Shown here: positions 2,183-18,518 of the stretch, piece after piece | Numbering within the stretch: position 1 is the stretch's first letter | Layout of the letters: each line of letters begins with the position of its first letter | IMG/VR virus record: IMGVR_UViG_3300037090_000360 | Span: 1 to 25,066 of that record | Strand: one strand, 5' to 3' | DNA: 25,066 nt | DNA from: a virus | Program-made: the position numbers and the translations under genes | The notes under the pieces: model-generated | Told to the model about the DNA's origin: nothing | The model's database searches: none | Seen by the model: the letters and a program-made list of their open reading frames with translations, nothing else

Positions 2183-3040
2183 ATGAGTAAAAAGATTGCT
2201 GTATTATTTTCAGGCGGGTTGGATTCAACTTATTTGATTTGGAAAAATCTTAAAGACGATAATGAAGTATATCCAGTTTATATTGAGATTGAAAATAATC
2301 AAACTAAAACAATTCTTGAAAAAAATCGTATTAAATTGTTAATTAAAGAGTTTAGAAAAGAATTTACCAATGAAAAAGATTATAGCGGGACGAGAATACA
2401 TGATATTGAATATGCATTAAAAGTTACTGTTAGCACAAGTGAATTTAGTTTATATTTTAAACAAATACCTGTTTGGATTTTTGGTACTGCATTTTTACAA
2501 AGTTTACCAGTTAGTGAGATTCAGATTGGTTATGTAACAAATGATGATGCAGTTTCATTTTTAGAGGACATAAAAAAAATTTATAAATCATATCAGGCAA
2601 TTTGTGAACCAATGAAACGTTTAACCTTTCCCGTTTCAAAAGTACGTAAAATTGAAATGGCAGAACAATTACCAAAACAATATCTTGATCTGATATTCAG
2701 TTGTGAAAACGCAACAATTATTGGTTCAGAAGATGCGGAAATAATTGATTATGAGCCATGCTGTAGCTGTCCATCTTGTAAACGTGTTATATCGAGCAAT
2801 TATTATGGATTAGGTAGGTTTCCAGAAAAATATAAAAAGGGCATTCGAATGCAACATGCGGTTGCTTTGTTGAGTGAAGGTTTTAGAGTTTTAGATAAGA
2901 ATGGAAATGATTTTCAAAACATTAAAAAATTTGAATATAAAAAAGAACCATATCAATTAGATTTATATTTAGATGGAGTTAATGCTGATAAAGTTGAAGA
3001 AGATAGTAGTAATTTAGAAAAAGTACCATTTAATGGATAA
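2183..3040 (+). CDS. queC: QueC-like 7-cyano-7-deazaguanine (preQ0) synthase
   Basis: QueC enzymes convert 7-carboxy-7-deazaguanine to preQ0 using ATP and ammonia; preQ0 feeds queuosine in tRNA or, in many phages, 7-deazaguanine bases in DNA that block restriction enzymes. Visible here are the N-terminal PP-loop ATP-pyrophosphatase motif FSGGLDST (9-16) and a C-terminal zinc site made by Cys174 and a CxxCxxC cluster (Cys193, Cys196, Cys199), the arrangement known in QueC. At 285 residues it is longer than the usual ~220-240, with extra sequence between the PP-loop and the zinc site and a C-terminal tail after ~210. No QueD, QueE, FolE or DpdA partner lies in the window, so the substrate could come from the host or from genes elsewhere. 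It overlaps PolB by 8 bases, favouring a DNA-modification role over tRNA queuosine. The family call is firm; the exact reaction is inferred. Confidence 0.82.
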   Translation: MSKKIAVLFSGGLDSTYLIWKNLKDDNEVYPVYIEIENNQTKTILEKNRIKLLIKEFRKEFTNEKDYSGTRIHDIEYALKVTVSTSEFSLYFKQIPVWIFGTAFLQSLPVSEIQIGYVTNDDAVSFLEDIKKIYKSYQAICEPMKRLTFPVSKVRKIEMAEQLPKQYLDLIFSCENATIIGSEDAEIIDYEPCCSCPSCKRVISSNYYGLGRFPEKYKKGIRMQHAVALLSEGFRVLDKNGNDFQNIKKFEYKKEPYQLDLYLDGVNADKVEEDSSNLEKVPFNG

Positions 3041-6753: not shown

Positions 6754-7404
6754 ATGAAAATAAAAAAAATACAATTATTTGAAATTATTGATTCAAATGG
6801 TGAACTGATTGGAAGAAATGACGTGCCTTCAACTGGCGCAGATTTAGAATCAGGAGCAAACGGTACTACCGACATGAATGTTGGAAAAGGTCAACAGCCA
6901 TTCAGATACGATATGTTAGGTCGTTTCGGCTTTACATTATTGCCATTTTTCGAAGGCAAAGAAGATCAGGGACAAAAAGAATTATTAAAAGATTTGGCAC
7001 AACTTATGCATGATAAGCGTATTGATATCTTAAAATATTATTATAAAAATCCTCAATTATTAAAACCTGATTATAGAAAAGAAGCTGCTGGTGAACCACA
7101 TTCAGAACAGTGTGAAAAAGAAGATATTGCATGGGCAAGAAAAGCTATTAAGGCAGTTGAACCACATTTTGAAAAAGCATTTAAAGAACCTATTGATGAA
7201 GTTGATTCAATAAATGAAGATAAAATTATTGAAGACAATGTAGCTGAAGATAAACTTGTAGATAAAAGGGGTGAAGATGAAATATCTCAGAAAGCTGAAG
7301 ATAATGATATTAAAGATAAAAAACTTGAAAAAATTGCTGGTCTTATCAGTAAATTAGATCAGAAAGATAAGGATAAACTTACAAATTTATTGGAAAGAAG
7401 ATAA
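6754..7404 (+). CDS. hypothetical phage protein with acidic, coiled C-terminus, 216 aa
   Basis: Unrecognised. Residues 1-20 form a short strand-turn-strand (KIQLFEIIDSNGELIG). Residues 50-145 look globular and helical, with FRYDMLGRFGFTLLPFFEG in the middle. From about 147 onward the chain is a low-complexity run of Asp, Glu and Lys that ends in a predicted helix. There is an INED site at 153-156, at the start of this acidic tail. It is the first gene behind a GTATTTAT motif and lies one base from the Nudix gene, so the two form one unit after the replication genes. A virion or head-assembly role is possible from this context only. Confidence 0.8.
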   Translation: MKIKKIQLFEIIDSNGELIGRNDVPSTGADLESGANGTTDMNVGKGQQPFRYDMLGRFGFTLLPFFEGKEDQGQKELLKDLAQLMHDKRIDILKYYYKNPQLLKPDYRKEAAGEPHSEQCEKEDIAWARKAIKAVEPHFEKAFKEPIDEVDSINEDKIIEDNVAEDKLVDKRGEDEISQKAEDNDIKDKKLEKIAGLISKLDQKDKDKLTNLLERR

Positions 7405-7405
7405 T

Positions 7406-8179
7406 ATGGCAAACTCACAATTACTCGATAAGCAGTATAAGATACCCTCAGACGTGTTGAAAGGCATCCAAATGACTCTTATTACCAATCCTCAAGGTGA
7501 GGGCGTAAAAAGGGCTAAATTCATGCTTAATAACGGTGCTATTACTTATCAGGCAATGAAAAGATTGAAAAATTTCTTTGATTATTTCAATCCACAGACT
7601 GGAGATAGAATACAATATGCTCTTGCTGGTGGAAATGCAATGAAACAATTTGTTGAAACAACCTTAACAAGCGACAGGGCAGGTGTTGAAATGACAAAGA
7701 ACGTCAAACAGGATATGAATGTTAATACTATGTTTGGCACAAAACCAGCACAGACACCAAGACTAAATGAAGATAAAAAAGAATTGAAAAAGAATGCAGT
7801 TGTTGTAATTGTTGACGAAGATAATAAGATATTGTTACTAAAAAGAAGTTCTGACCCTAAAATATGGCAACCAAGTAAGTGGGCATTAGTTGGTGGTGGG
7901 ATTGAAAAAAATGAGACTCCACAACAAGCAATTGAAAGAGAAATAACTGAAGAAACAGGATTAGAAATAAAAAAATTTATTAAATCATTTAGTATTCAAA
8001 GAAATCCAGACAGTATTGAACATATATTTGCTTGTCGATATGAGGGTGACCCAACCGATATAAGGCTAAATGAAGAAAATACAAATTATGGTTGGTATGA
8101 TGTTGATGAAATGAAATTCTTAGATATTGTGCCACATTTGATAGAATATATTACAATGGCATTCAAAAAATACGATTAA
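7406..8179 (+). CDS. Nudix hydrolase with an extra N-terminal domain
   Basis: Nudix enzymes cleave nucleoside diphosphates linked to another moiety, such as ADP-ribose, NADH or oxidised dNTPs. The C-terminal half (about 129-257) is a full Nudix domain: strand AVVVIVDEDNKILLLKR, then a complete Nudix box GGIEKNE...REITEETGL (about 164-186) with all catalytic Glu residues and the Arg. The first ~115 residues are a separate helical domain I do not recognise, starting near QYKIPSDVLKGIQ and including YQAMKRLKNFFDYFNP. A linker with the tripeptide LNE (120-122) joins the two, exactly where a T4-type prohead protease could cut. Substrate cannot be read from sequence; ADP-ribose or NAD-related compounds fit the neighbouring ART-like and cysteine-hydrolase genes, but housekeeping of dNTPs is equally open. 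Confidence 0.92.
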   Translation: MANSQLLDKQYKIPSDVLKGIQMTLITNPQGEGVKRAKFMLNNGAITYQAMKRLKNFFDYFNPQTGDRIQYALAGGNAMKQFVETTLTSDRAGVEMTKNVKQDMNVNTMFGTKPAQTPRLNEDKKELKKNAVVVIVDEDNKILLLKRSSDPKIWQPSKWALVGGGIEKNETPQQAIEREITEETGLEIKKFIKSFSIQRNPDSIEHIFACRYEGDPTDIRLNEENTNYGWYDVDEMKFLDIVPHLIEYITMAFKKYD

Positions 8180-8182
8180 TTT

Positions 8183-8190
8183 GTATTTAT
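8183..8190 (+). promoter_or_regulatory. GTATTTAT motif, putative phage promoter
   Basis: Second copy of the motif, context TGTATTTATA, three bases after the Nudix stop codon and 35 bases before the ATG at 8226. The leader between them is almost pure A/T and has no Shine-Dalgarno sequence. Confidence 0.5.
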
Positions 8191-8225
8191 ATTAAAATAA
8201 TTGAGTTTAAATAAAAAATAAAAAA

Positions 8226-8465
8226 ATGAGCAAATTAGAAGGAATTAGTTTACAATTTCAAACTTGCAGCATCGCAAAAAATTCTTACACTTGTAATGAT
8301 CAATATAATACTGGTAACCCAGATGCATTATCTGATGGTGACGTACAAGGCAAAGGTGAATTGAACGGTAGTATTGGTAGCTGTGATGATATTAAAGACA
8401 GAAAATGTGAAATCACGAAAAATAAATATCAAGAAGACAGACAATATAATGCGAGTACCGCATAA
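8226..8465 (+). CDS. small hypothetical phage protein, 79 aa
   Basis: Unrecognised short, polar protein with four cysteines and no membrane segment. It is rich in Asn, Asp and Gly in the middle (PDALSDGDVQGKGELNGS) and basic near the end. The start follows an A-rich leader typical of this genome, and its stop overlaps the next ATG by one base (TAATG), so it is probably translationally coupled to the WYL-like gene. Composition suggests an extended or oligomeric structural peptide rather than an enzyme. Confidence 0.75.
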   Translation: MSKLEGISLQFQTCSIAKNSYTCNDQYNTGNPDALSDGDVQGKGELNGSIGSCDDIKDRKCEITKNKYQEDRQYNASTA

Positions 8466-9370
8466 TGATCAGTGAATCTAAAATACTATTTGAGAACGTT
8501 AAACATTTTCGCCAATTATTAACTGAAGGCGTTAGTGATAAGGTTATTGTCGATGCTATTAATCAACATAAATTTCTCTATATTTATTATAAAGGAGAAA
8601 ATACAGTTGAAACTGGCTATCGAACAATAAGACCTTTTGTGCTTGGCGTAAATACAAGTGGTAATTTAGCTGTTAGAGCATGGCAGGACAAAGGTAGAAG
8701 TGATAGCCTTAGATCAGATTCTCCAAGAAATAGATTACATCATGAACATGAAGTAGATACGGATGGATTGACAAAACCGGGTTGGCGATTGTTTCTTGTT
8801 AACAATATAACTTCTGCAATACCAACAGGTAAAAGATTTATTGATGCTCAAGGAAATGTTGAAATACCAACAGGATATAAAGAAAATGATAAAGATATGA
8901 CAGGTGGTATAATTGCATCTGTTACATCTGGCGGTAAAATACCTGTGGGCGGTATACCAACAACAAGACAAAAATTGCCGAGATGGGACAAATATAAAAA
9001 CGCAGATAAAAATAACCGACAAATTACAAAAGCAGATGTTCTTGGATTAAATGATATTGCCAAAAGAGTTATGAAAAAACCCATCACGGATTTTTTTGTT
9101 GCAATTGATGATAAAAATAACTTTAATTTACAGGATATAAGAACCAAACTTAGTTTTCCACAAAACGCATATGTGGATGATTTAAGTAATTTATATAATA
9201 GGCTTGTTATGAAAACACCTGTGGATAAAACAGCACAAGATCAGTTTGCAAAAAACCAAAAAGATAAAATGGTAAAAGGTCTTGCCGAAAAGCAAACTCC
9301 ACAAAATCCGTCAATGTTTAAAGAAAATGAAAATAATCCTATTGATAAGAAGACTTTTTTCAAACAATAG
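8465..9370 (+). CDS. WYL-like domain protein with a possible N-terminal capsid-targeting leader
   Basis: WYL domains are SH3-like folds that bind ligands or nucleic acid and often act in defence regulation. Residues ~27-125 fit the pattern: helix VIVDAINQHKFLYIYYKG, then RTIRPFVLGVNTSGNLAVRAW (52-72) and GWRLFLVNNITSA (106-118), matching the family's R-x-I-x-P and R-x-F-x-L-x-x-I positions. The preceding ~21 residues form a short amphipathic leader ending in LTEG (19-22). This is like T4 internal proteins, whose ~10-20 residue capsid-targeting leader is cut after L/I-x-E. The C-terminal half is polar and includes a domain near NADKNNRQITKADVLGLND that I do not know. A packaged WYL protein would be unusual. 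The WYL call is by pattern only; a structure prediction would settle it. Confidence 0.6.
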   Translation: MISESKILFENVKHFRQLLTEGVSDKVIVDAINQHKFLYIYYKGENTVETGYRTIRPFVLGVNTSGNLAVRAWQDKGRSDSLRSDSPRNRLHHEHEVDTDGLTKPGWRLFLVNNITSAIPTGKRFIDAQGNVEIPTGYKENDKDMTGGIIASVTSGGKIPVGGIPTTRQKLPRWDKYKNADKNNRQITKADVLGLNDIAKRVMKKPITDFFVAIDDKNNFNLQDIRTKLSFPQNAYVDDLSNLYNRLVMKTPVDKTAQDQFAKNQKDKMVKGLAEKQTPQNPSMFKENENNPIDKKTFFKQ

Positions 9371-9371
9371 A

Positions 9372-9379
9372 GTATTTAT
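9372..9379 (+). promoter_or_regulatory. GTATTTAT motif, putative phage promoter
   Basis: Third copy, context AGTATTTATA, one base after the TAG stop of the WYL-like gene and 23 bases before the ATG at 9403. The gene it precedes is a single-gene unit closed by a terminator at 10065-10098. Confidence 0.5.
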
Positions 9380-9402
9380 AAAAAAATATAAAAATTTATA
9401 AA

Positions 9403-10083
9403 ATGGCAAAACCAGATTTAAATAAACTTAGAACCGAGATCGATAATCGCAAAAGAGAAAGAAACATATCATCATCACCATTAGGTGAAAGTACAGGTGC
9501 TAATATTGCACCAAGGGATGCTTTTTTATATGAATTGATTAGGTCACATGATACTGGCGTTGAAACACCAGCAACCGATTTAATCAAGTTAGTTGAAAAT
9601 CAAGTTGCAATTAAAAATAAAGAAACGGTACGACATAACATTAATGAAACTGCTGTTGTTGACAGAGTACCAGCACGTCTTCCTATTCAAAACAATAAAG
9701 CTACTGAGATGTCACCTGAAAGAGACGAGCAGTTATTCACTGATCTTCAAAATAAAAGCAAACAAACATTAGCCGACTCAATTGCACCTTATGTTGGTGG
9801 TCAGAAAAAAAATCTTAATCCAACTGCTGGTGCAGCAGTATCACCAATGAATTTAAATGAAGGTTATTTGGTTGAAAACGTAAAAAAGATTGTTGATAAC
9901 TACTTGATTGATAATTTCGGTCCCGTTATCGAAGAAGCAATTAAAGGTACAATTATTGAAATGTATGCTGCAGAAAGAATCAAAGAAGTACTTACCGAGA
10001 ACAAAGAAATGATCAGAGCAGTTATAATTGAAGTTATTAAAGAAATTTCAGACAAAAATAAAGCAAAGAAAGCGCAACTGTAA
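9403..10083 (+). CDS. hypothetical phage protein, possible capsid-internal or scaffold-like, 226 aa
   Basis: No family recognised. The N-terminal third is basic and polar, the middle is disordered-looking (GGQKKNLNPTAGAAVSPM), and the C-terminal ~70 residues form a helical bundle or coiled coil. LNEG at 151-154 sits exactly at the border between the disordered middle and the helical end. Such a layout resembles assembly-core or internal head proteins that are processed by a prohead protease, but this is inference. It is flanked by a GTATTTAT motif in front and an intrinsic terminator whose hairpin loop contains its stop codon, so it is transcribed alone or as the end of a longer message. Confidence 0.78.
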   Translation: MAKPDLNKLRTEIDNRKRERNISSSPLGESTGANIAPRDAFLYELIRSHDTGVETPATDLIKLVENQVAIKNKETVRHNINETAVVDRVPARLPIQNNKATEMSPERDEQLFTDLQNKSKQTLADSIAPYVGGQKKNLNPTAGAAVSPMNLNEGYLVENVKKIVDNYLIDNFGPVIEEAIKGTIIEMYAAERIKEVLTENKEMIRAVIIEVIKEISDKNKAKKAQL

Positions 10084-10098
10084 TTGCGCTTTCTTTTT
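10065..10098 (+). terminator. strong rho-independent terminator
   Basis: A perfect 13-bp stem, AAAGAAAGCGCAA (10065-10077) paired with TTGCGCTTTCTTT (10084-10096), closes a 6-base loop and runs straight into a T-rich tail. The TAA stop of the 226-residue protein (10081-10083) lies in the loop. It separates this unit from the next GTATTTAT motif. Confidence 0.9.
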
Positions 10099-10110
10099 AT
10101 AATCAAGTTT

Positions 10111-10118
10111 GTATTTAT
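10111..10118 (+). promoter_or_regulatory. GTATTTAT motif, putative phage promoter
   Basis: Fourth copy, context TGTATTTATT, directly after the terminator and 21 bases before the ATG at 10140. A terminator immediately before it is the best positional argument that these octamers start new forward transcripts. Confidence 0.55.
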
Positions 10119-10139
10119 TAATAACTTAATATTCTTAAC

Positions 10140-13100
10140 ATGACTTACGATAACTTCTTAAAATTATTGGATGAATTTGAAGAAATACAATCATTTGCAA
10201 AGAAAATCGAATTTGCTAATCGATATTTTCAAAGAATAGGTAGTGGGTCAGGTAGAATTGTTTATGATATTGACGGCACTAAAGTTTTTAAATTAGCAAA
10301 GAATGCTAAAGGTGTTGCTCAAAATGAAGCTGAAATAAACATTGGTTCATATCATGACACCCACAATATAGTTACGAAAGTTTTAGAAAGTAATAATAAT
10401 GGTAGTTGGATTATTTCCGAAAAAGCAAAAAAAGTCAACGAAAGTAGAATTAAACAATTAACTGGCATTCCAAGTTTAAATGAATTATTTTATTTTCTTA
10501 GAAATCACGAAAATAACATTAAAGGTGGTCATAATATTTTTGGTCTGGATACAGATGTTGAAGAATCATTAAATAATAATGAATTCGTTATTGAATTGCA
10601 AGACATAATGTCAAATTATTCAATATCTGCTGGCGACTTAGGTAGACCAAGCACATATGGTGAAGTTCTTCGTGATGGTCAGCCAACAATTGTTTTAACT
10701 GATTATGGATTAACAGGTGAAGTATATGATACTCATTATAATCCAAGTAGAAAGAAAAATGATCGTTATGGTTTCAAAATGTATGAATTATATAATAATA
10801 ATGATGGCAACGATGATATACTTGGAGATATGCCACCACAAGATGCAATAGATACACGTAGAGGCATGTGGGCGCAAATACCTTACAGCGTAGGCGATGG
10901 TAGTGGTGTAATAAATGAAGGTTTTATATCATTTATACTTGACAGAGATAAGTATCCGACAAGAGTGTTGCCGAGCGCACCATATATAGTCGATGAATTT
11001 CATAATTGTGTAAATAATATTGACGAAACTTTGAATCATGTTAAAAATAAAAAGAAATTTTATGAAAATTTATTGAAACTTCAAGAATATCTTATTGAAC
11101 AAAAATTTTATGACAGAGAACCTTTAGGTGAAATTGTATATTTAAAAGAAGATGGTAGTGCTTTATACTCTACTGATAATGCAATGGGACAAGATAATTT
11201 TCCTGTACATAATAACATTGATACTTCACCTTTAATTAGAAATGATCTTGATGCAAATAGAGATAAGAATAATGAAGATTTAGAATATCATAATGTGGTG
11301 GGAGATGCTACGAAAGATCAATACATGTTGGATGAAAGACAATTATCTTCAATGGCTGGCAGCAGTACTGTAGAAGTAAAACAGAAATGCAGATTAGCGG
11401 GTAACGGTAACACTTCAACTGCATGCAATCAAGGAGACATTAGAAACTTGAATATCAAACCTCTTAAAGAAGAAATTTCAGCAAAGGAAGCATATACTGA
11501 TGAAGGTGCATTGAAAACAGTTTTAAACGGAAAAAGAAAGATTGGTTTTGTTCATATAAATAAACCAATTGCTCAAAAATTAGAAAAACTTAAAATTGGT
11601 GTTATTCCAGTAAGAATGACATCGCAAAATACCATGACAGCAATAATATATCGTGATAAAGTAAAAGCATATTTATTGTATGAAATTGCTAAAAAGCATG
11701 GTGGATATTTAAATGATAGAACTCCTGAAGAAGCACGTGAAATAGGACGATTGTTAGAATATAAAGAAGAGGATATTAACGAGTTTATTCATAAAAATTA
11801 TGGTGTAATACCAGATAAATCACCAGACGATTTTAATGATCTGGCTGAAAATGCTTCATTGGATTTTTGGGATTTGAATGAAGGAAATTTTCCAGCATTT
11901 GAAAAAGATATCCAGCAAGACCTTACAACCCATCAATTGGATAAAAAATATATAAGAAGTTATCAGGACGGAGAACACACATATAATGTATATGCTGTTA
12001 ATGGTGATCAAGTTCGTGATAGTGGTTTTATTGAATGGGTAGATGGTGGTAATCATTGGGTTGATGCTGATTTACCGAAAAAAGAACAAAAATATGCAAA
12101 ACATATTGGAGAAAATGATTATTGGATTGATGATGTGTTTATGGTCAAACCAGCAGATTTTGAAGCAATATTATTACATGAGAGAACAGAAAGTTTTATT
12201 ATAAGACATTATGGTTACGAATACGATGATGCTCATGAAATTGCAAATAAAGTTGAATTAATGTTCAGAAAAAAAATACCTGAAGGTGCAAATCGTGCTC
12301 TTGCTGAGAAAATTTATGATATATTTGTAGCTAATTTCAAACCAGAAAAAAGTAAACAGAAACATAAACCAGTAAATGAAAGCATTGCAGATGTGGCAGC
12401 AGAAAAACAATTTGGCATTCAGCATCCAGATACCGATTTTGAAACTCAATTCAGTAAAGAACAAAATATTGAAAATAAAGAAGAAATAATATATATAACA
12501 TCTAATGATAGATCATATAGTAATGTAGCAATGATAAAAAATCCAAAATCATGGCGTAATATTGGTAATAGTGTCAGAGGAGTTATAGATTCTACAGGAA
12601 ATTTATATATTGAATTAGTATCAAAACTAATACATGAAGATATTATTAATGAATTAAGTAGATTAAATCTTATTAAATACCAATCAGATTGGGATAAAAA
12701 ACTCCCTGAAAGTTTTATTACTGTACAACGACATAGAAAAACAAATAATATTTTTCTTGGAGAATCTACTTCAACGATGTATCCAGATGAATTTAGACCT
12801 AAAACAAATTATTGGCAAGAAATTCCAAGTAATAATTTTGCAAAACCAGTTATTCAGAAATTTTTAGATAAAGCAAAACAAAAAAATCCATATATTAATT
12901 TTATTAATGAAACTATTTATGAATATTATAAAAAAAATAAAGAAGAAGATATTTTTGAAAATGAAATATTAAATGAAGGACAGATAATGGCATTAAATTA
13001 TCTTCCGTTTAAAGAAGATGTTGAAGAAGCTGGTGGTAAAATATATTCAGTTGGTGGTGCTGTCAGGGATGAAATTCTCGGTAAAGAATCCAAAGACTTA

Positions 13101-14168
13101 GATATTCTTATTACTGGTGTGCCATTTGAAAAACTTGAAGAAATACTTAGTAAATATGGTGCTGTCAATGCAGTTGGCAAATCATTTGGTATATTAAAAT
13201 TCAAACCAAAAGGCGCAACAGAAGATATTGATATTGCAATTCCACGTACCGAAACACCAACAGGTGAAGGTGGTCATCAGGGATTTGATGTTAAATCAAA
13301 TCATGCTTTGCCAATTGAAAAAGACCTTGAAAGACGTGATTTTACCATCAATGCAATTGCAAAAGATGCTGAAGGTAATATTGTTGACCCATTTGGTGGT
13401 CAAGAAGATTTAAAAAATAAAGTTATTAAGGTTGTTAACCCACAGGCATTTAGTGATGACCCACTCAGAATGTTGCGTGCTGTACAGTTTGCAAGTCGTT
13501 TTGGTTTTACTATTGACCCAGACACAATGAAAATGATTCAGGAAAATGCTGGTCGTGTAAAAGAAATTGCACCTGAGAGAATTTTGACAGAATTCGAGAA
13601 AATTGTCAGAAAATGCAACATTTTGACAGGTGCAATACTACTTAATGAAACTGGTTTGCTTAAAGAAATATTTGGCAGAGGATTAAATTACGATTTTAGA
13701 AATACGAGAGAACCCTTTGATAAAGTTAGAACAATGGGAGAATTTGTTTATCTATTAAGTAAAAATCTTGTTAATAACCCTGCAGAGTTCTATAAAAATA
13801 ATCTTAAAGGTGACGAGAATTCATATAAAGAGATAAAGGCACTTCAATTAGCATATGAAAGTGGAGAGGCTACCAATTTAATCGAAGCAAGATCAATTGC
13901 ACATAATATGTACGTGACATCTCCAACATCATTACAAAGTCAGATATTGCCAAATGTAATTAAAACTGCTGCACAAGAATTATTTGAAGGTAAGTATCCC
14001 AAAACTGTTAATGAACTGGCAGTAAATGGTAATGATTTAATGGAACTTGGTTTACAAGGTAAAGCAGTTGGTGATATGCAAAAATCATTATTATTGAAGA
14101 TTTATTCAAATAAAGTTATGAATAATAAAGAAGATTTACTATCTTTGGCGGGTCAAAATGGAAAATAA
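10140..14168 (+). CDS. polyvalent polyprotein: kinase-like N-terminus, unknown modules, C-terminal CCA-adding nucleotidyltransferase
   Basis: This is a 1342-residue multidomain protein. Residues ~30-200 look like a protein-kinase/phosphotransferase fold: glycine-rich IGSGSGRIVYD (33-43), an FKLAKN lysine (~51), and a DFG-like VLTDYGLTG (185-193); no HRD motif is obvious. Residues 387-440 contain a Cys-containing CRLAGNGNTSTACNQGDI, and 455-555 another conserved-looking unit. Residues 620-712 contain LLHERTES (678-685) followed by AHEIA, zincin-like but lacking HExxH. Residues ~950-1330 form a complete class II CCA-adding/poly(A) polymerase: GGAVRD (972-977), DLD (986-988), RRDFTINAIA (1065-1074), DDPLRMLRA (1106-1114) and a C-terminal GNDLMELGLQGKAVG. 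INEG (258-261), LNEG (579-582) and LNEG (944-947) separate the modules. Met950 has an A/G-rich AAGGA upstream and could serve as an internal start. The nucleotidyltransferase call is firm; the kinase-like call is moderate. Confidence 0.9.
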   Translation: MTYDNFLKLLDEFEEIQSFAKKIEFANRYFQRIGSGSGRIVYDIDGTKVFKLAKNAKGVAQNEAEINIGSYHDTHNIVTKVLESNNNGSWIISEKAKKVNESRIKQLTGIPSLNELFYFLRNHENNIKGGHNIFGLDTDVEESLNNNEFVIELQDIMSNYSISAGDLGRPSTYGEVLRDGQPTIVLTDYGLTGEVYDTHYNPSRKKNDRYGFKMYELYNNNDGNDDILGDMPPQDAIDTRRGMWAQIPYSVGDGSGVINEGFISFILDRDKYPTRVLPSAPYIVDEFHNCVNNIDETLNHVKNKKKFYENLLKLQEYLIEQKFYDREPLGEIVYLKEDGSALYSTDNAMGQDNFPVHNNIDTSPLIRNDLDANRDKNNEDLEYHNVVGDATKDQYMLDERQLSSMAGSSTVEVKQKCRLAGNGNTSTACNQGDIRNLNIKPLKEEISAKEAYTDEGALKTVLNGKRKIGFVHINKPIAQKLEKLKIGVIPVRMTSQNTMTAIIYRDKVKAYLLYEIAKKHGGYLNDRTPEEAREIGRLLEYKEEDINEFIHKNYGVIPDKSPDDFNDLAENASLDFWDLNEGNFPAFEKDIQQDLTTHQLDKKYIRSYQDGEHTYNVYAVNGDQVRDSGFIEWVDGGNHWVDADLPKKEQKYAKHIGENDYWIDDVFMVKPADFEAILLHERTESFIIRHYGYEYDDAHEIANKVELMFRKKIPEGANRALAEKIYDIFVANFKPEKSKQKHKPVNESIADVAAEKQFGIQHPDTDFETQFSKEQNIENKEEIIYITSNDRSYSNVAMIKNPKSWRNIGNSVRGVIDSTGNLYIELVSKLIHEDIINELSRLNLIKYQSDWDKKLPESFITVQRHRKTNNIFLGESTSTMYPDEFRPKTNYWQEIPSNNFAKPVIQKFLDKAKQKNPYINFINETIYEYYKKNKEEDIFENEILNEGQIMALNYLPFKEDVEEAGGKIYSVGGAVRDEILGKESKDLDILITGVPFEKLEEILSKYGAVNAVGKSFGILKFKPKGATEDIDIAIPRTETPTGEGGHQGFDVKSNHALPIEKDLERRDFTINAIAKDAEGNIVDPFGGQEDLKNKVIKVVNPQAFSDDPLRMLRAVQFASRFGFTIDPDTMKMIQENAGRVKEIAPERILTEFEKIVRKCNILTGAILLNETGLLKEIFGRGLNYDFRNTREPFDKVRTMGEFVYLLSKNLVNNPAEFYKNNLKGDENSYKEIKALQLAYESGEATNLIEARSIAHNMYVTSPTSLQSQILPNVIKTAAQELFEGKYPKTVNELAVNGNDLMELGLQGKAVGDMQKSLLLKIYSNKVMNNKEDLLSLAGQNGK

Positions 14169-15099
14169 TAGAAAAGAAATATTGATTTGTAATGAATGTA
14201 ATAAAGAATTTAATTCATTAAAAGGATTGAAAAATCATAATAGATACGGATGTAGTACCAAATTACATTCAAATTATTTTAAATATTGCCCAATATGTAA
14301 TGAAATAATACATTATGAAAGTAAAACTAAATATGATTATGCAATTAAAAATGATTCAAAATGCCATAAATGTGGTAATATTGGTAGAGAAGTGTCTGAA
14401 AACACAAAAATTAAAACATCTAAAACATTAAAAGAAAAATATGATAATGGCACACTAATTCCAAACATGATAGGCGCACATTCAAATGAATCAAGAAAAA
14501 AACAATCTGCAAAGAGAAAGAATTGTAAGTTAACTGAATCGCATAAATTAAATATTTCGATTGGTTTAAATAAATCTGAAAATTTTAAAATATCCGTACA
14601 TTCAAAAGAAAGAGGTAATAAAATTTCAAAAAAATTAACAAATAAAAAATTTTCAAAAGAACATATCATTAAACTTTCTGAATCACATGCAAATGTTGCG
14701 AACGAAAATAATCCGTTTTATAATAAAAGTCATACTAATGAAGCTAAGAATAAAATGAGAATTAGTGCCATTGAAAGAATTAGATTAAATAAGTTTGAAA
14801 ATAATCAAATAGTGCCGTTTTATAACAAAAGAGGTTGTGAATATTTTAATAATCTAATGAAAATCAATAATTGTTTCATACAACACGCTGAAAATGGTGG
14901 TGAATTTTATATTAAGAAATTAGGATATTTTGTTGATGGATATGACGAAAAAAACAATATTGTTTATGAATGGGATGAAAAACGTCATTTTCAAAAAGGT
15001 AAATTAATTGAAAGGGATATTATTAGAGAAAATGAAATTACCAATTTACTAAAATGTGCTTTTATTAGAATTAAAGAAAGTGAGGTAAATAATGATTAA
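14158..15099 (+). CDS. free-standing homing endonuclease (zinc finger, NUMOD3-like repeats, nuclease domain)
   Basis: A mobile DNA endonuclease. It begins with a C2HC zinc finger (Cys11, Cys14, His27, Cys32), then two CxxC pairs (Cys44/47, Cys69/72). The basic middle (about 105-205) carries NUMOD3-like DNA-binding repeats such as KKFSKEHIIKLSES and SHTNEAKNKM. The C-terminal nuclease contains GYFVDGYDEKNNIVYEWDEK and His277, a pattern of acidic residues plus His that fits the Vsr/PD-(D/E)XK-related nucleases of phage homing enzymes. It starts 11 bases inside the polyprotein gene and ends 8 bases into the next gene, so it sits neatly between two genes that look like one packaged-protein series. 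It is even more A/T- and Asn/Lys-rich than its neighbours, consistent with separate mobility. Confidence 0.82.
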   Translation: MENNRKEILICNECNKEFNSLKGLKNHNRYGCSTKLHSNYFKYCPICNEIIHYESKTKYDYAIKNDSKCHKCGNIGREVSENTKIKTSKTLKEKYDNGTLIPNMIGAHSNESRKKQSAKRKNCKLTESHKLNISIGLNKSENFKISVHSKERGNKISKKLTNKKFSKEHIIKLSESHANVANENNPFYNKSHTNEAKNKMRISAIERIRLNKFENNQIVPFYNKRGCEYFNNLMKINNCFIQHAENGGEFYIKKLGYFVDGYDEKNNIVYEWDEKRHFQKGKLIERDIIRENEITNLLKCAFIRIKESEVNND

Positions 15100-15697
15100 G
15101 AAAATTATAGTTGAGGAAATTAAAAAATTTTTCTTAAATGAATTTGCTTATCCTGAAATGAGACCAGAAGAAAAGAATACTTGGGACATAAATGGAGAAA
15201 ATGTTGACATTAATTTCTTTGTACATAAATATGATGAATGGAATCATCAGGGTGGTGAAAATAGTGGTTATAAAGACCCTTCAGAAGCATCAGTGTTAGA
15301 ATTTATAGAGAATAACTATGAAGATTTTACACATGATGAAAAATTAAAAAAAGAGTTGCTTTGGGCATTGACAGATCGAGAAGTTTTAAATGAGAATGAA
15401 TCTAAATATAATAAAGAAAAAGAAGCATTAATGAAATCAAAAAGTATTGATGCTGAAATGAAAGAAAAGATTCTAAAATATTTTACTGCTGGTTCAACAT
15501 ATAAAGAAGGTGGACATGTACATGGTTTAAGCAAGCCAAAAGAATTAATGGACAAAACATCTAAAACAGAAGGTGTTAGTATGGGTGCAGATAAAGACGG
15601 ATTCTTTGTATATACACATCGTCAAAGGTCTAAGTCATATGAATCACCCGAAAAAATATCAATAAAAGACATTGAATTTACTGAAAGTACTGGCTAA
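15092..15697 (+). CDS. hypothetical phage protein with N-terminal LNE leader, 201 aa
   Basis: Unknown function. It begins with an amphipathic leader, MIKKIIVEEIKKFFLNE, then Phe18 and a Pro-rich stretch; LNE at 15-17 is placed like the cut site of a T4 capsid-targeting leader. Residues ~27-100 look globular and acidic, ~105-135 are helical, and the last 50 residues contain a distinct module: TEGVSMGADKDGFFVYTHR followed by a charged stretch ending DIEFTESTG. This end module reads like a conserved phage domain that I cannot name. It is coupled upstream to the homing endonuclease (8-base overlap) and downstream by TAATG to the cysteine-hydrolase-like gene, which may mean the two proteins work together. 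Confidence 0.75.
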   Translation: MIKKIIVEEIKKFFLNEFAYPEMRPEEKNTWDINGENVDINFFVHKYDEWNHQGGENSGYKDPSEASVLEFIENNYEDFTHDEKLKKELLWALTDREVLNENESKYNKEKEALMKSKSIDAEMKEKILKYFTAGSTYKEGGHVHGLSKPKELMDKTSKTEGVSMGADKDGFFVYTHRQRSKSYESPEKISIKDIEFTESTG

Positions 15698-16353
15698 TGA
15701 AAAAAGAAAAATTACTTAAAGAACAACAACGCAATAAATTACTCGAAGATTCGGGCATAAATCTTGTTCAAAATGCAAATTTATTGTCAATTGATATTCA
15801 ACCAGAATATCAAAATGCATTTAATTTTCAATTGAGTAATTATATACGATTTTTAAATAGAAATTTTGATACTATGAATTCTCTTACATTTTTATATAAT
15901 GGTGAGAATACTGTTGGTGGCGTAAGTGAAGGAGAATATAAAATGTGGTTAATAGAAAATGGTATTAAAGAATCAATACTTGATTATGCCAGATTTTACG
16001 ATAAAGGTTATGCATTTTTCAGAAGCTGTATGGATGATGGTCATGATGAAAAAGAAATTGTTAACTTAGTAAAATATATGATTAAACATGACATTAACGA
16101 TAGTAGAGACATTGATGAAGAAATGTGGCAAGGTTTTATGACAGAATATGGATATGATTCAAGTGATGTTCGTGATTTTCTTGAACCAGCACAGGATTGC
16201 ATTAATATACCAGATTTAATGGATTACTTACAAAAATTTTCTGGAAAAATAGTTATATGTGGCGGTGGAATAAACCAATGCTTTAAAGAAGTAGAAATTG
16301 CTTTAAATGCATTGGAAAAAATTTATAATGTTTTAACAAAATTTACTTATTAA
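15697..16353 (+). CDS. cysteine hydrolase (isochorismatase/nicotinamidase fold) candidate
   Basis: The isochorismatase superfamily uses an Asp-Lys-Cys triad to hydrolyse amides, carbamates or enol ethers, including nicotinamide. Here a first strand LLSIDIQPEY (29-38) supplies Asp33 in the family's D-x-Q context. A second block YDKGYAFFRS (101-110) supplies Lys103 in a K-x-Y-x-F context, and a third, KIVICGGGINQC (184-195), supplies Cys195 after a glycine-rich turn, followed by a helix. Order and spacing fit the family, and 218 residues is its usual size. The loops between are not typical, so the substrate is unknown. The first ~25 residues are a charged helix. It is coupled by TAATG to the 201-residue protein. 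It could instead be a non-catalytic phage derivative of the fold. Confidence 0.55.
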   Translation: MKKEKLLKEQQRNKLLEDSGINLVQNANLLSIDIQPEYQNAFNFQLSNYIRFLNRNFDTMNSLTFLYNGENTVGGVSEGEYKMWLIENGIKESILDYARFYDKGYAFFRSCMDDGHDEKEIVNLVKYMIKHDINDSRDIDEEMWQGFMTEYGYDSSDVRDFLEPAQDCINIPDLMDYLQKFSGKIVICGGGINQCFKEVEIALNALEKIYNVLTKFTY

Positions 16354-16393
16354 TTTTATTATTGTATAAGTGTGAGTTACTAAATCCTATAAA

Positions 16394-16401
16394 GTATTTA
16401 T
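16394..16401 (+). promoter_or_regulatory. GTATTTAT motif, only one base before a start codon
   Basis: Fifth copy, context AGTATTTATT. The ATG of the 58-residue gene begins at 16403, so if this were a -10 element the transcript would start inside or after that codon. Either the motif serves the ArdC-like gene at 16576, or the small gene is read from another message, or the motif is not a -10 box. Confidence 0.4.
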
Positions 16402-16402
16402 T

Positions 16403-16579
16403 ATGAAAAGCAAAGACAAAACAAGAACAGTTACACCAATGGATGTAGCCAAATTTTTAGGTGTTGAAAAAGAATATAAAGAAGTTCTTTTTGAACAAGA
16501 ACTGAAAGAAAATCATGATATTATTATGAGTAATAATATCGAAGAAAATAATACTATTAGAAAAGATAACAATAAATGA
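16403..16579 (+). CDS. 58-residue protein sharing a motif with the ArdC-like C-terminus
   Basis: A short gene whose stop overlaps the next ATG (ATGA). Residues 9-29 (TVTPMDVAKFLGVEKEYKEV and Leu) match residues 481-501 of the ArdC-like protein at 17 of 21 positions, and the DNA matches at 53 of 63 bases. The match includes the codons before the internal ATG at 16439, which supports the start at 16403. The rest is acidic and Asn-rich with no recognisable fold. It could be a real small protein that shares a docking or packaging tag with its neighbour, or the remnant of a tail-end duplication. Preserved reading frame and few radical changes favour selection. Confidence 0.6.
   Translation: MKSKDKTRTVTPMDVAKFLGVEKEYKEVLFEQELKENHDIIMSNNIEENNTIRKDNNK
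16427..16489 (+). repeat. 63-bp direct repeat, copy 1 (in the 58-residue gene)
   Basis: This pairs with 18016-18078 at 53 of 63 bases, in the same reading frame. Differences fall mainly at third positions or give conservative changes (Lys/Arg, Leu/Ile, Glu/Asp). Confidence 0.85.
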
Positions 16580-18135
16580 AAGCATTAAATGAAGCATTTG
16601 TTATAAGCAAAAGAACAGATCAGAAGGGTAATTATATTGCATATATTGACCCGAATAAGCCAGAAAACAAAGAAACTTTTAAATACAAAGACATATTTAA
16701 GAATCATGGTGCTAAATGGAATAATGATTATAAATTTTGGTTTTGGTATATAGGCAAAACAAAAGATCAATGGCAAAACGTTTACAGTCATTTCATTGAA
16801 CCAGCATTAAAAGAAGTACATGCATTAGAAGGTGCTCCAGAAGAAGAAAGTGCTGCAGCATTAATATCATCATTGGATGCTCTCTTATCAGAAATTAGTG
16901 CAACACCAACCACTACAAATCCAGAAAATGATGCTGAACTTACACCTGAAGAAAAAAAAGCACTTATTGACAAATTAGGAAAGTTTAAAGAAACTTTGGT
17001 CAATATTGATAGTGATGAAGAATTTAAAAAAACAATGCAGATTATTTTATCTTTTAAAAATTCTCAAGGACATTCATATAGTTTCATGAATAGTATATTA
17101 ATCATGATTCAGAATCCTAATGCAAGTTTAGTAAAAAGTGAAATCAACTGGAATAGATTTAACAGAACTGTTGTTGATAAGAAAAACAGAATGATTATAC
17201 GTTCTCCGAGTAAAAGGGCAATGAGACCGTATTCTAAAATTGAAAAAGAAAAAATTACCGCAGAATTTTTAAAATCGGTTGGCAAAAATACTTATAATGA
17301 ATTGGGTCCGGGTGAACGTGAACGTCTTGGCGTTCAGCTTCGTGGAGCATTTAGTGGTCACGATTTTGATTATACATTTGTATATGATGTTTCAAATACT
17401 CAACAAATGGAAGGCAAAGAAAATTTCTTGGGTGATTATGAAAAACGTAAAGAAATTAAATGGTTTGAAGAAAACATGATAAGTGAAGAAATCAGACCAA
17501 TATATAAATCATTACTTGATTTTGCTCAAGAAAATGGAGTTAAAATAGAATTGGTTGATGAATTGGATGGTGCAAGAGGAGTAAGTTCAAGTGGTTTGAT
17601 TCGAATTTTAAAAAATGAAGGTAATGATGTTGGTCTAACAAAAACATTGGCACATGAAATTGCACATGAATTATTACATCAAAGTTATGTGAAAAATAAA
17701 AATTCAAAGTTTTCACAATATTTTGTGGGTAAAACTGAAGGTAGAGATGCTGTTGAACAACAAGCTGAATTGACAGCATGGATGGTATTAGGTTCATTTA
17801 ATTTTGATTTAAAAACAACTTCTTTAAATTATGCAGCAATGTGGGGTGCTGATAAAGATGCTATGATTCGAGTATTTGATACAGTATCTGGTGTTGTCAG
17901 TATGTTGGTGGATTATATAAGTAGAAAAATTAAAAATAATGCAAACAATGTTGCACCACAAAATAACACAAATGCAGCCACACCACAAAATGAAGTACTT
18001 GATAATACATCAAAAACAGTTACACCAATGGATGTAGCAAGATTTATTGGTGTTGAAAAAGAGTACCAAGATGTTTTAAATAAAAATAAAAGCGAACTGG
18101 TAGAAAATTTCTACAGTTTATTAAAAAAATTATGA
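16576..18135 (+). CDS. ArdC-like anti-restriction protein with zincin metallopeptidase domain
   Basis: ArdC proteins bind single-stranded DNA and protect incoming DNA from restriction; they pair an N-terminal DNA-binding domain with a zinc peptidase-like domain. The DNA-binding signature is here: HSYSFMNSILIMIQNP (166-181), an INWNRFNRTVVDKK block (190-203) and IIRSPSK. The peptidase domain has LAHEIAHELLH (358-368; zinc ligands His360 and His364) and EQQAELTAW (394-402; Glu398 the likely third ligand). N-terminal residues ~18-75 form a separate domain with GAKWNNDYKFWFWYIG, like modules that bind nucleic acid. The protein begins MKALNEAF, a very short leader with an LNE site. Residues 481-501 repeat the small protein just upstream, after a disordered Asn-rich linker. 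It overlaps both neighbours by ATGA. A packaged, injected ArdC would act before host restriction; that part is inference. Confidence 0.85.
   Translation: MKALNEAFVISKRTDQKGNYIAYIDPNKPENKETFKYKDIFKNHGAKWNNDYKFWFWYIGKTKDQWQNVYSHFIEPALKEVHALEGAPEEESAAALISSLDALLSEISATPTTTNPENDAELTPEEKKALIDKLGKFKETLVNIDSDEEFKKTMQIILSFKNSQGHSYSFMNSILIMIQNPNASLVKSEINWNRFNRTVVDKKNRMIIRSPSKRAMRPYSKIEKEKITAEFLKSVGKNTYNELGPGERERLGVQLRGAFSGHDFDYTFVYDVSNTQQMEGKENFLGDYEKRKEIKWFEENMISEEIRPIYKSLLDFAQENGVKIELVDELDGARGVSSSGLIRILKNEGNDVGLTKTLAHEIAHELLHQSYVKNKNSKFSQYFVGKTEGRDAVEQQAELTAWMVLGSFNFDLKTTSLNYAAMWGADKDAMIRVFDTVSGVVSMLVDYISRKIKNNANNVAPQNNTNAATPQNEVLDNTSKTVTPMDVARFIGVEKEYQDVLNKNKSELVENFYSLLKKL
18016..18078 (+). repeat. 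63-bp direct repeat, copy 2 (ArdC-like C-terminus)
   Basis: Pairs with 16427-16489. It encodes TVTPMDVARFIGVEKEYQDV and Leu501, following a disordered linker, so it is a separable C-terminal tag rather than part of the peptidase fold. Confidence 0.85.
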
Positions 18136-18518
18136 GTAATATTTCTTATAGTGCCGTAGTTCTTGATGATAATTCAAGACAAAGGCTAATTGAAAGATTT
18201 AAGAATATAATACCCGAAGGTTGGGATATTATTGCAGATCATATGACTGTTAATTTGGGTGAAATTGACCCTGAATATGAAAAGTATCTTGGCTTAGCTG
18301 TACGTTTAACTGTTAATGATATTGCTATGGATGATAAAGTAATTGCAGTTGGCGTATCATCAGGAATTAACGCACATAATCCCAAAGCACATATAACACT
18401 GGCAGTAAATAGGACAAATGGTGGTAAACCAGTGATGTCAAATAATCTGACTAATTGGGAGAAATTACGCAGACCATTATTATTAAGAGGAAAAATAACT
18501 CAAGTAGAATATAAATAA
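18132..18518 (+). CDS. 2H phosphoesterase (tRNA-ligase CPDase-like or Acb1-like)
   Basis: 2H enzymes carry two H-x-T/S motifs and open 2',3'-cyclic phosphates in RNA or cleave cyclic nucleotides. The two motifs are DHMTVNLG (36-43; His37, Thr39) and AHITLAVN (86-93; His87, Thr89), spaced as expected for this 128-residue fold. The context ADHMTV...DDKVIAVGV...HITLAVN resembles the cyclic phosphodiesterase module of tRNA ligases. T4 Acb1, which destroys CBASS cyclic oligonucleotides, is another member of the superfamily, so anti-CBASS activity is an alternative. It overlaps the ArdC-like gene by ATGA and lies one base from a HAD phosphatase of the RNA-repair type, which leans towards RNA end healing. 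The superfamily call is strong; the substrate is open. Confidence 0.75.
   Translation: MSNISYSAVVLDDNSRQRLIERFKNIIPEGWDIIADHMTVNLGEIDPEYEKYLGLAVRLTVNDIAMDDKVIAVGVSSGINAHNPKAHITLAVNRTNGGKPVMSNNLTNWEKLRRPLLLRGKITQVEYK

Follow-up and report, generated by a model that had tools for sequence, protein, structure and literature searches.

The virus record IMGVR_UViG_3300037090_000360 is complete as a record and represents a genome fragment; its 25,066 bp, analyzed as a whole and called the window below, are a fragment of a jumbo phage. The question raised by its gene cluster at 6754-18518 is why the tripeptide [LI]xE recurs in the encoded proteins, both behind short N-terminal leaders and between domains. 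An earlier note on this DNA had compared these tripeptides with the cleavage sites of the T4 prohead protease, whose cut rule is L/I-X-E (PMC9026906), and had read the cluster as a capsid-packaged kit matured by such a protease. This reading is supported by an S77 protease found in relatives, by an INE/S site in their capsid precursors (here and below the slash marks the putative cut) and by the concentration of the motif at module borders. Quite probably, the cluster is a cassette of late genes from a jumbo phage with a T4-like head, encoding modular packaged "polyvalent" polyproteins and leader proteins, which the prohead protease would cleave in trans; that they are cleaved, packaged and injected is a prediction of this comparison.

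Relatives were collected via a scan with the baseplate protein gp6, which yielded 80 related loci, some of them on records of 200-349 kb; their genes were called as simple longest open reading frames (ORFs).

Motifs at the borders of exchangeable modules

The largest protein of the cluster, a polyprotein of 1342 amino acids (10140..14168, plus strand, as all genes below), consists of a kinase-like N-terminal domain, a CNQGDI stretch, EAYT, HERxE and repeat (SIAD) modules, and a full CCA-adding enzyme (profile matches Pfam PolyA_pol, 4e-24, and PHROG 2244, 1.3e-67). Judging from the alignments, it is a string of swappable modules and not one fixed protein. Module content and order differ among 65 related proteins, the longest comprising 2688 amino acids (relative G012), and parts of the polyprotein are swapped, duplicated, lost or encoded as separate genes in relatives; EAYT, HERxE, CCA, 2H, ART and GNAT modules are likewise shuffled with the motif at their borders.

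The junction before the EAYT module carries LKE 442-444 (11463..11471), and in relatives this module is preceded by LKE, VNE, ISE, LDE or INE behind three different upstream modules. The HERxE module follows LNE 579-581 (11874..11882), while IHE (G012) and LNE (G015) stand ahead of it after unrelated upstream sequence. VNE 745-747 (12372..12380) precedes the repeat (SIADVAAEK) module, other copies of which are preceded by QME, VDE, MLE and IDE; in the AlphaFold model this tripeptide lies in a segment with predicted local distance difference test scores (pLDDT) below 50, i.e. disordered. Finally, LNE 944-946 (12969..12977) stands before the CCA-adding enzyme, which in relatives with other upstream modules is preceded by MNE, INE or IDE; the linker 931-949 around it has pLDDT <50 and separates folded domains, and the fold of the CCA-adding enzyme is complete downstream of it in the predicted structure. 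LKE 442 and VNE 745 had been overlooked in the earlier note, whereas all the motifs that it did list are present at their positions. Its placement of sites exactly between domains holds for LNE 579 and LNE 944, and also for two smaller proteins described below, but not for INE 258-260 (10911..10919): though conserved in most relatives, this tripeptide lies within a continuous conserved domain, is replaced by MDD in G005, and is probably not a cleavage site.

The same pattern is seen for a 2H-type protein of 128 amino acids (HMTV..HITLAV; 18132..18518), encoded by a separate gene in the window and joined to the polyprotein end in at least 11 relatives. In each fusion L-x-E (LDE, LNE, LTE, LGE) is found 0-4 residues ahead of the 2H module, and it persists where the upstream module differs. 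The 201-amino-acid protein (15092..15697) consists of the leader MIKKIIVEEIKKFFLNE/ (LNE 15-17, 15134-15142), module A, LNE 99-101 (15386-15394) and module B, the second LNE also standing at a border and also overlooked before. Module A is internal in about 20 polyproteins, where it follows [LIM]xE, and is preceded by [LIM]xE in at least five different upstream contexts, the window leader included; the LNE itself recurs before module A in other polyproteins.

As the earlier note had anticipated, the motif is denser in the kit proteins than in replication genes or shuffled proteins, and it is concentrated at module borders. [LI]NE occurs 15 times in 2846 amino acids of the six proteins named there (5.3 per 1000 amino acids; 3.1+-1.7 in shuffled sequences) and 3 times in 2238 amino acids of the replication and metabolism genes (1.3 per 1000). 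Since these six proteins had been chosen for the motif, the test was repeated on seven further genomes. Within their syntenic cluster, [LI]NE is 1.7-4.5 times as frequent as in shuffled sequences, compared with 1.3-1.6 times outside the cluster. Borders were then defined, blind to the motif, as ends of BLAST alignments between polyproteins. [LI][NTGDSK]E is found at 97/273 module starts (45.2+-5.9 at random) and at 120/294 module ends (60.5+-6.6), roughly double the random expectation, with z of about 9, a score inflated by sequence relatedness. Neither [LI].D nor [LI].K shows such enrichment at borders.

Safer figures than these z-scores are given by two other tests. In 641 other proteins of the same genomes, borders show no comparable excess (53/644 vs 47.5 and 70/733 vs 61.9; z 0.9 and 1.1, and 0.4-1.1 overall). 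Among 58 borders with distinct upstream context, taking one representative per context, with the start of each module read from a single reference copy that was itself left uncounted, [LI].E is present at 32/58 (background 0.165, p=2e-11). These figures bear on the possibility that the LxE motifs remain uncut and are conserved for a linker or docking role, the multidomain protein being used whole. Linkers may be acidic by nature, and [KNDE].E and E.[LI] are mildly enriched at borders too; still, the enrichment of [LI]xE is the strongest, it is absent from borders of the other proteins of the same phages, and [LI]xE also terminates short leaders and the capsid propeptide, which makes uncut linkers unlikely.

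Conservation was compared among homologs down to 32-50% identity. The protein of 257 amino acids (7406..8179) has a helical N-terminal domain, a disordered linker with LNE 120-122 (7763-7771) and a Nudix domain (Pfam NUDIX, 9.6e-21); this LNE is invariant in 10/10 divergent clade homologs, and in the AlphaFold model it separates folded domains within a linker (98-136) with pLDDT <50. The 226-amino-acid protein (9403..10083) consists of a variable N-terminal part, [LI]NE 151-153 (9853-9861) and a conserved helical C-terminal part; [LI]NE is retained in 10/10 homologs, with swaps between Leu and Ile, adjoining variable linkers. Linkers of both proteins vary in length and sequence across homologs, while the motif is retained. 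In the 301-amino-acid protein (8465..9370), labeled "WYL-like" earlier, a label that no profile hit confirms, the leader of 21 amino acids ends with LTE 19-21 (8519-8527), and [LI]xE followed by G, S or N is present in 10/10 clade homologs, x being T, K, N or F. By conservation exceeding that of their flanks, the sites of these three proteins occupy ranks 4, 5 and 9 among 81 [LI]xE in window genes.

Chance occurrence of the motifs in an Asn/Glu-rich proteome is the simplest alternative, as [LI].E is itself common (12-15 per 1000 amino acids in the clade), but the border, conservation and control tests contradict it for the whole set, for which it is highly improbable; chance may explain INE 258. 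Alternatively, the motif could be a recombination or homing site acting at the DNA level in module shuffling, with the residues as its by-product: modules are indeed shuffled, and homing endonucleases are encoded at or near borders in some relatives. Codons of the sites and the flanking bases vary, however (CTA/TTA/CTT/CTG/ATT, AAT/AAC, GAA/GAG; L, I, M or V used), so a DNA-level repeat at borders was rejected, and this explanation has very little probability left. Since synonymous changes between homologs are accompanied by replacement of Leu by Ile, selection at the sites acts on the protein.

Prohead protease and the predicted maturation pathway

Profiles PF03420 and PF07068 have no match in the window and in short relatives, because these fragments stop short of the head genes. 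The expectation of a gp21-like protease elsewhere in the genome is borne out by relatives that hold head genes, where it is accompanied by a T4-like gp23 capsid protein. PF03420 (S77 family, T4 gp21) scores above the cut-off in five of the six relatives holding the capsid gene (G010, G012, G015, G017, G018), and the gp23 family is matched at E of about 1e-64 in these five records and a sixth one, the S77 and gp23 genes being a few kb apart. The G010 protease (234 amino acids) matches PF03420 at 1.7e-16 and the T4 gp21 structure 5JBL at 1.7e-9; two motifs of T4 gp21, ..HP.. and G[IV]SSRG, are preserved in it. In G012, G015, G018 and LR756508, the two S77 halves are about 1.1-1.2 kb apart within one long frame, and the G015 gene has a Pfam Intein_splicing match (1.3e-4), hence the head protease itself probably carries an intein.

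The capsid precursors of the clade contain invariant INE/S (6/6 members: ..HMINE/SS.. or ..HMINE/ST.., and YMINE/SS in G010), which aligns with FLTE/A (LTE/A) of T4 gp23, the end of the T4 propeptide of 65 residues (PMC5694885). Therefore, a tripeptide of the same class is found at the point where T4 gp23 is known to be cleaved.

The following pathway is suggested. Leaders, or the N-terminus of a polyprotein, would carry precursors into the scaffold core, where, to judge by the sites, the enzyme and the example of the capsid precursor, the gp21-type protease, also trimming that precursor at INE/S, would cut after Glu at every border. Once freed, the CCA-adding enzyme and the kinase, ART, Nudix, 2H phosphoesterase and ArdC-like proteins would be injected; their domain families suggest that they deal with tRNA damage, with nucleotide signals and with restriction early on. 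It is also reasonably probable, with somewhat less confidence, that this DNA phage employs a true polyprotein strategy, importing exchangeable enzyme cassettes as one chain that is split in trans in the prohead at every border, so that new anti-defence functions could be added by fusion, without a packaging signal of their own.

Alternatively, the polyprotein could be a polyvalent protein cut by itself or by a metallopeptidase of the kit (the ArdC-like HEIAH zincin, the HERxE module or an IrrE-like protein) rather than by the prohead protease. For polyvalent proteins, release by metallopeptidases embedded in them has been proposed (PMC5512222), such a domain being common though not obligatory there; the window encodes both the ArdC-like zincin and the HERxE module, and G010 an IrrE-like M78 protein. 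However, among 30 polyproteins of at least 500 amino acids HExxH is present in one and HERxE in five, and the former count led us to reject an embedded metallopeptidase as the general releaser. Moreover, no complete ArdC-like gene was found in G010, G012, G017 and G018, which have the same borders, and the border motif is identical to the capsid-precursor site. Cleavage by a kit metallopeptidase is thus a doubtful alternative.

Several observations weigh against cleavage by the prohead protease, besides the inflated z-scores. At about one third of borders, no [LIVM]xE falls within the strict limits set around the border, though several have the motif 1-2 residues outside them. The S77 protease comes from relatives and not from the 25-kb window. 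The ArdC-like leader consists of just 6 amino acids and is missing in G007. The stand-alone 2H protein (18132) and one stand-alone form of the CCA-adding enzyme have no LxE leader; as some modules stand alone in this way, packaging of every piece is not implied.

Leaders and predicted cargo

Leaders of about 10-20 residues ending with L/I-x-E are present at the N-termini of the 201- and 301-amino-acid proteins, while in the Nudix and 226-amino-acid proteins the site is internal. The earlier assignment of sites to the ends of short leaders stands for the former two, and is less certain for the ArdC-like zincin (519 amino acids, HEIAH; 16576..18135; PHROG 87 metallo-protease, 1.9e-5), whose LNE 4-6 (16585-16593) is retained in five homologs, replaced by IFE in two and absent in one. 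The polyprotein N-terminus carries an L/I-x-E leader in most relatives; in the window a possible site is LDE 10-12 (10167..10175) in MTYDNFLKLLDE/F, compared with MTYDEFKQNFLTE/F and MTYNEFLQNFLPE/F of relatives.

The window leaders differ from one another. In relatives, the leader M..SKERLFEMM.[KR]VN....LNE/ (RLFE leader) is found on unrelated bodies (cupin, P-loop kinase, ART-PolyVal, IrrE-like), and in the kinase and ART proteins with this leader the helix is present with no LNE after it. In T4, leaders read MKTYQEFIAE/A in IPII and IPIII (checked in GenBank) and MAKINELLRE/S in gp24. This pattern fits capsid targeting sequences as in T4, a role assigned here by analogy.

A similar leader occurs in the distant 636-kb phage LR756504, which likewise encodes gp23 and S77 genes: the density of [LI]NE[GASF] in its proteins is about 15 times higher at residues 10-15 than elsewhere, owing to the leader MK..K.F..FLNE/S (also MKxxKxFxxFLNE), which is found on at least 12 proteins. 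It was rejected as a close relative, as its CCA-adding enzyme is a separate gene without a leader, and is evidence only of a comparable leader in another phage. Related leader proteins of LR756504.1 (pieces L018-L037 and L058-L069) bear OmpA-like or peptidoglycan-binding domains. In Flavobacterium phage immuto (NC_055915), KNV73_gp067, a Glu-rich protein encoded beside the capsid gene and likely the scaffold, has the C-terminus RWQKLAGIIK, which resembles the leader FRRMQKLAGIITE/ of another protein (L076:2675); a binding element may be common to leader and scaffold.

Judging from domain families, the cargo may repair tRNA (CCA-adding enzyme), cleave cyclic or 2'-5' nucleotides (2H), carry out ADP-ribosylation (ART), clean up nucleotides (Nudix) and counteract restriction (ArdC-like). 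The ART-PolyVal profile PF18760 is matched in relatives (7.9e-14 in L004; 4.1e-8 in a G010 leader protein). The 2H modules have weak matches to Pfam Acb1 (sub-threshold, 4.3e-5) and 2_5_RNA_ligase2, with no direct match in comparison with T4 57B (Acb1), so that a role against the cyclic-oligonucleotide-based anti-phage signaling system (CBASS) is a lead only. The repertoire as a whole resembles polyvalent proteins (PMC5512222) and head-packaged NAD/ADP-ribose enzymes (PMC9503650).

Known systems and genomic setting

The T4 internal proteins IPI-IPIII and Alt share with this kit the short leader ending with L/I-x-E, the S77 protease, the T4-like capsid and anti-defence cargo, but they are single products with one leader, while here one precursor is built from several modules, every border between them bearing a site. 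Polyvalent proteins (PMC5512222) likewise combine many effector domains per polypeptide in swappable cassettes, have the ART-PolyVal domain in common with relatives of the window, include an ArdC-like protein and are predicted to be packaged; the proposed release there is via embedded metallopeptidases, in contrast to the prohead-protease signal at borders here, most polyproteins lacking HExxH. In ejection proteins of phiKZ and SPN3US (PMC5694885), which are also jumbo-phage head proteins, a T4-gp21-related protease cuts after x-x-E at several sites per precursor, but the extra sites lie in propeptide regions and not between folded enzymes. The Dar proteins of P1 (PMC9024508) are large anti-restriction cargo with an N-terminal capsid signal (DarB), and splitting of a polyprotein at several borders is not reported for them. 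T4 internal proteins and polyvalent proteins are known. No polyprotein split by a prohead protease was found in the open-access literature searched, which is not the whole literature, and such a protein appears not to have been described in it. If cleavage takes place as predicted, [LI]xE at domain borders together with a gp21-type protease would be a sequence rule for virion-packaged effectors in uncultured phages. Such cleavage would also account for the delivery of long multidomain polyvalent proteins to the host in the form of separate enzymes, and tailed DNA phages would gain a polyprotein system. The predicted cargo (CCA, 2H with its weak Acb1 match, ART, Nudix, ArdC-like) would also yield testable predictions on counter-defence at the first moments of infection.

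The cluster is preceded in the window by genes for a helicase, a QueC-like protein and a B-family DNA polymerase and is followed by further genes; in relatives, the next genes after it encode baseplate proteins gp25 and gp6. As a gp6 relative, 77% identical, sits on a contig binned with a Bacteroidota genome, and immuto is among the nearest named relatives by gp6, the host is likely a member of Bacteroidota. That the phage is one of the published Bacteroidetes jumbo phages with bS21 was rejected, since no S21 gene was found.

A NUMOD3-type homing endonuclease gene (14158..15099; Pfam NUMOD3, 3.3e-6) lies between the polyprotein gene and the next kit gene. In L002, L010 and L011, homing-type endonuclease genes split the polyprotein between two modules, leaving the CCA-adding enzyme as a separate gene. 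The motif MDVA[RK]F[IL]GVE.EY is shared by the C-terminus of the ArdC-like protein (17990-18080) and by ORFs of 61-62 amino acids in relatives (L003:9989-10177; L004:9832-10017). The QueC-like gene of queuosine biosynthesis (2183-3040) has the helicase on one side and the DNA polymerase on the other.

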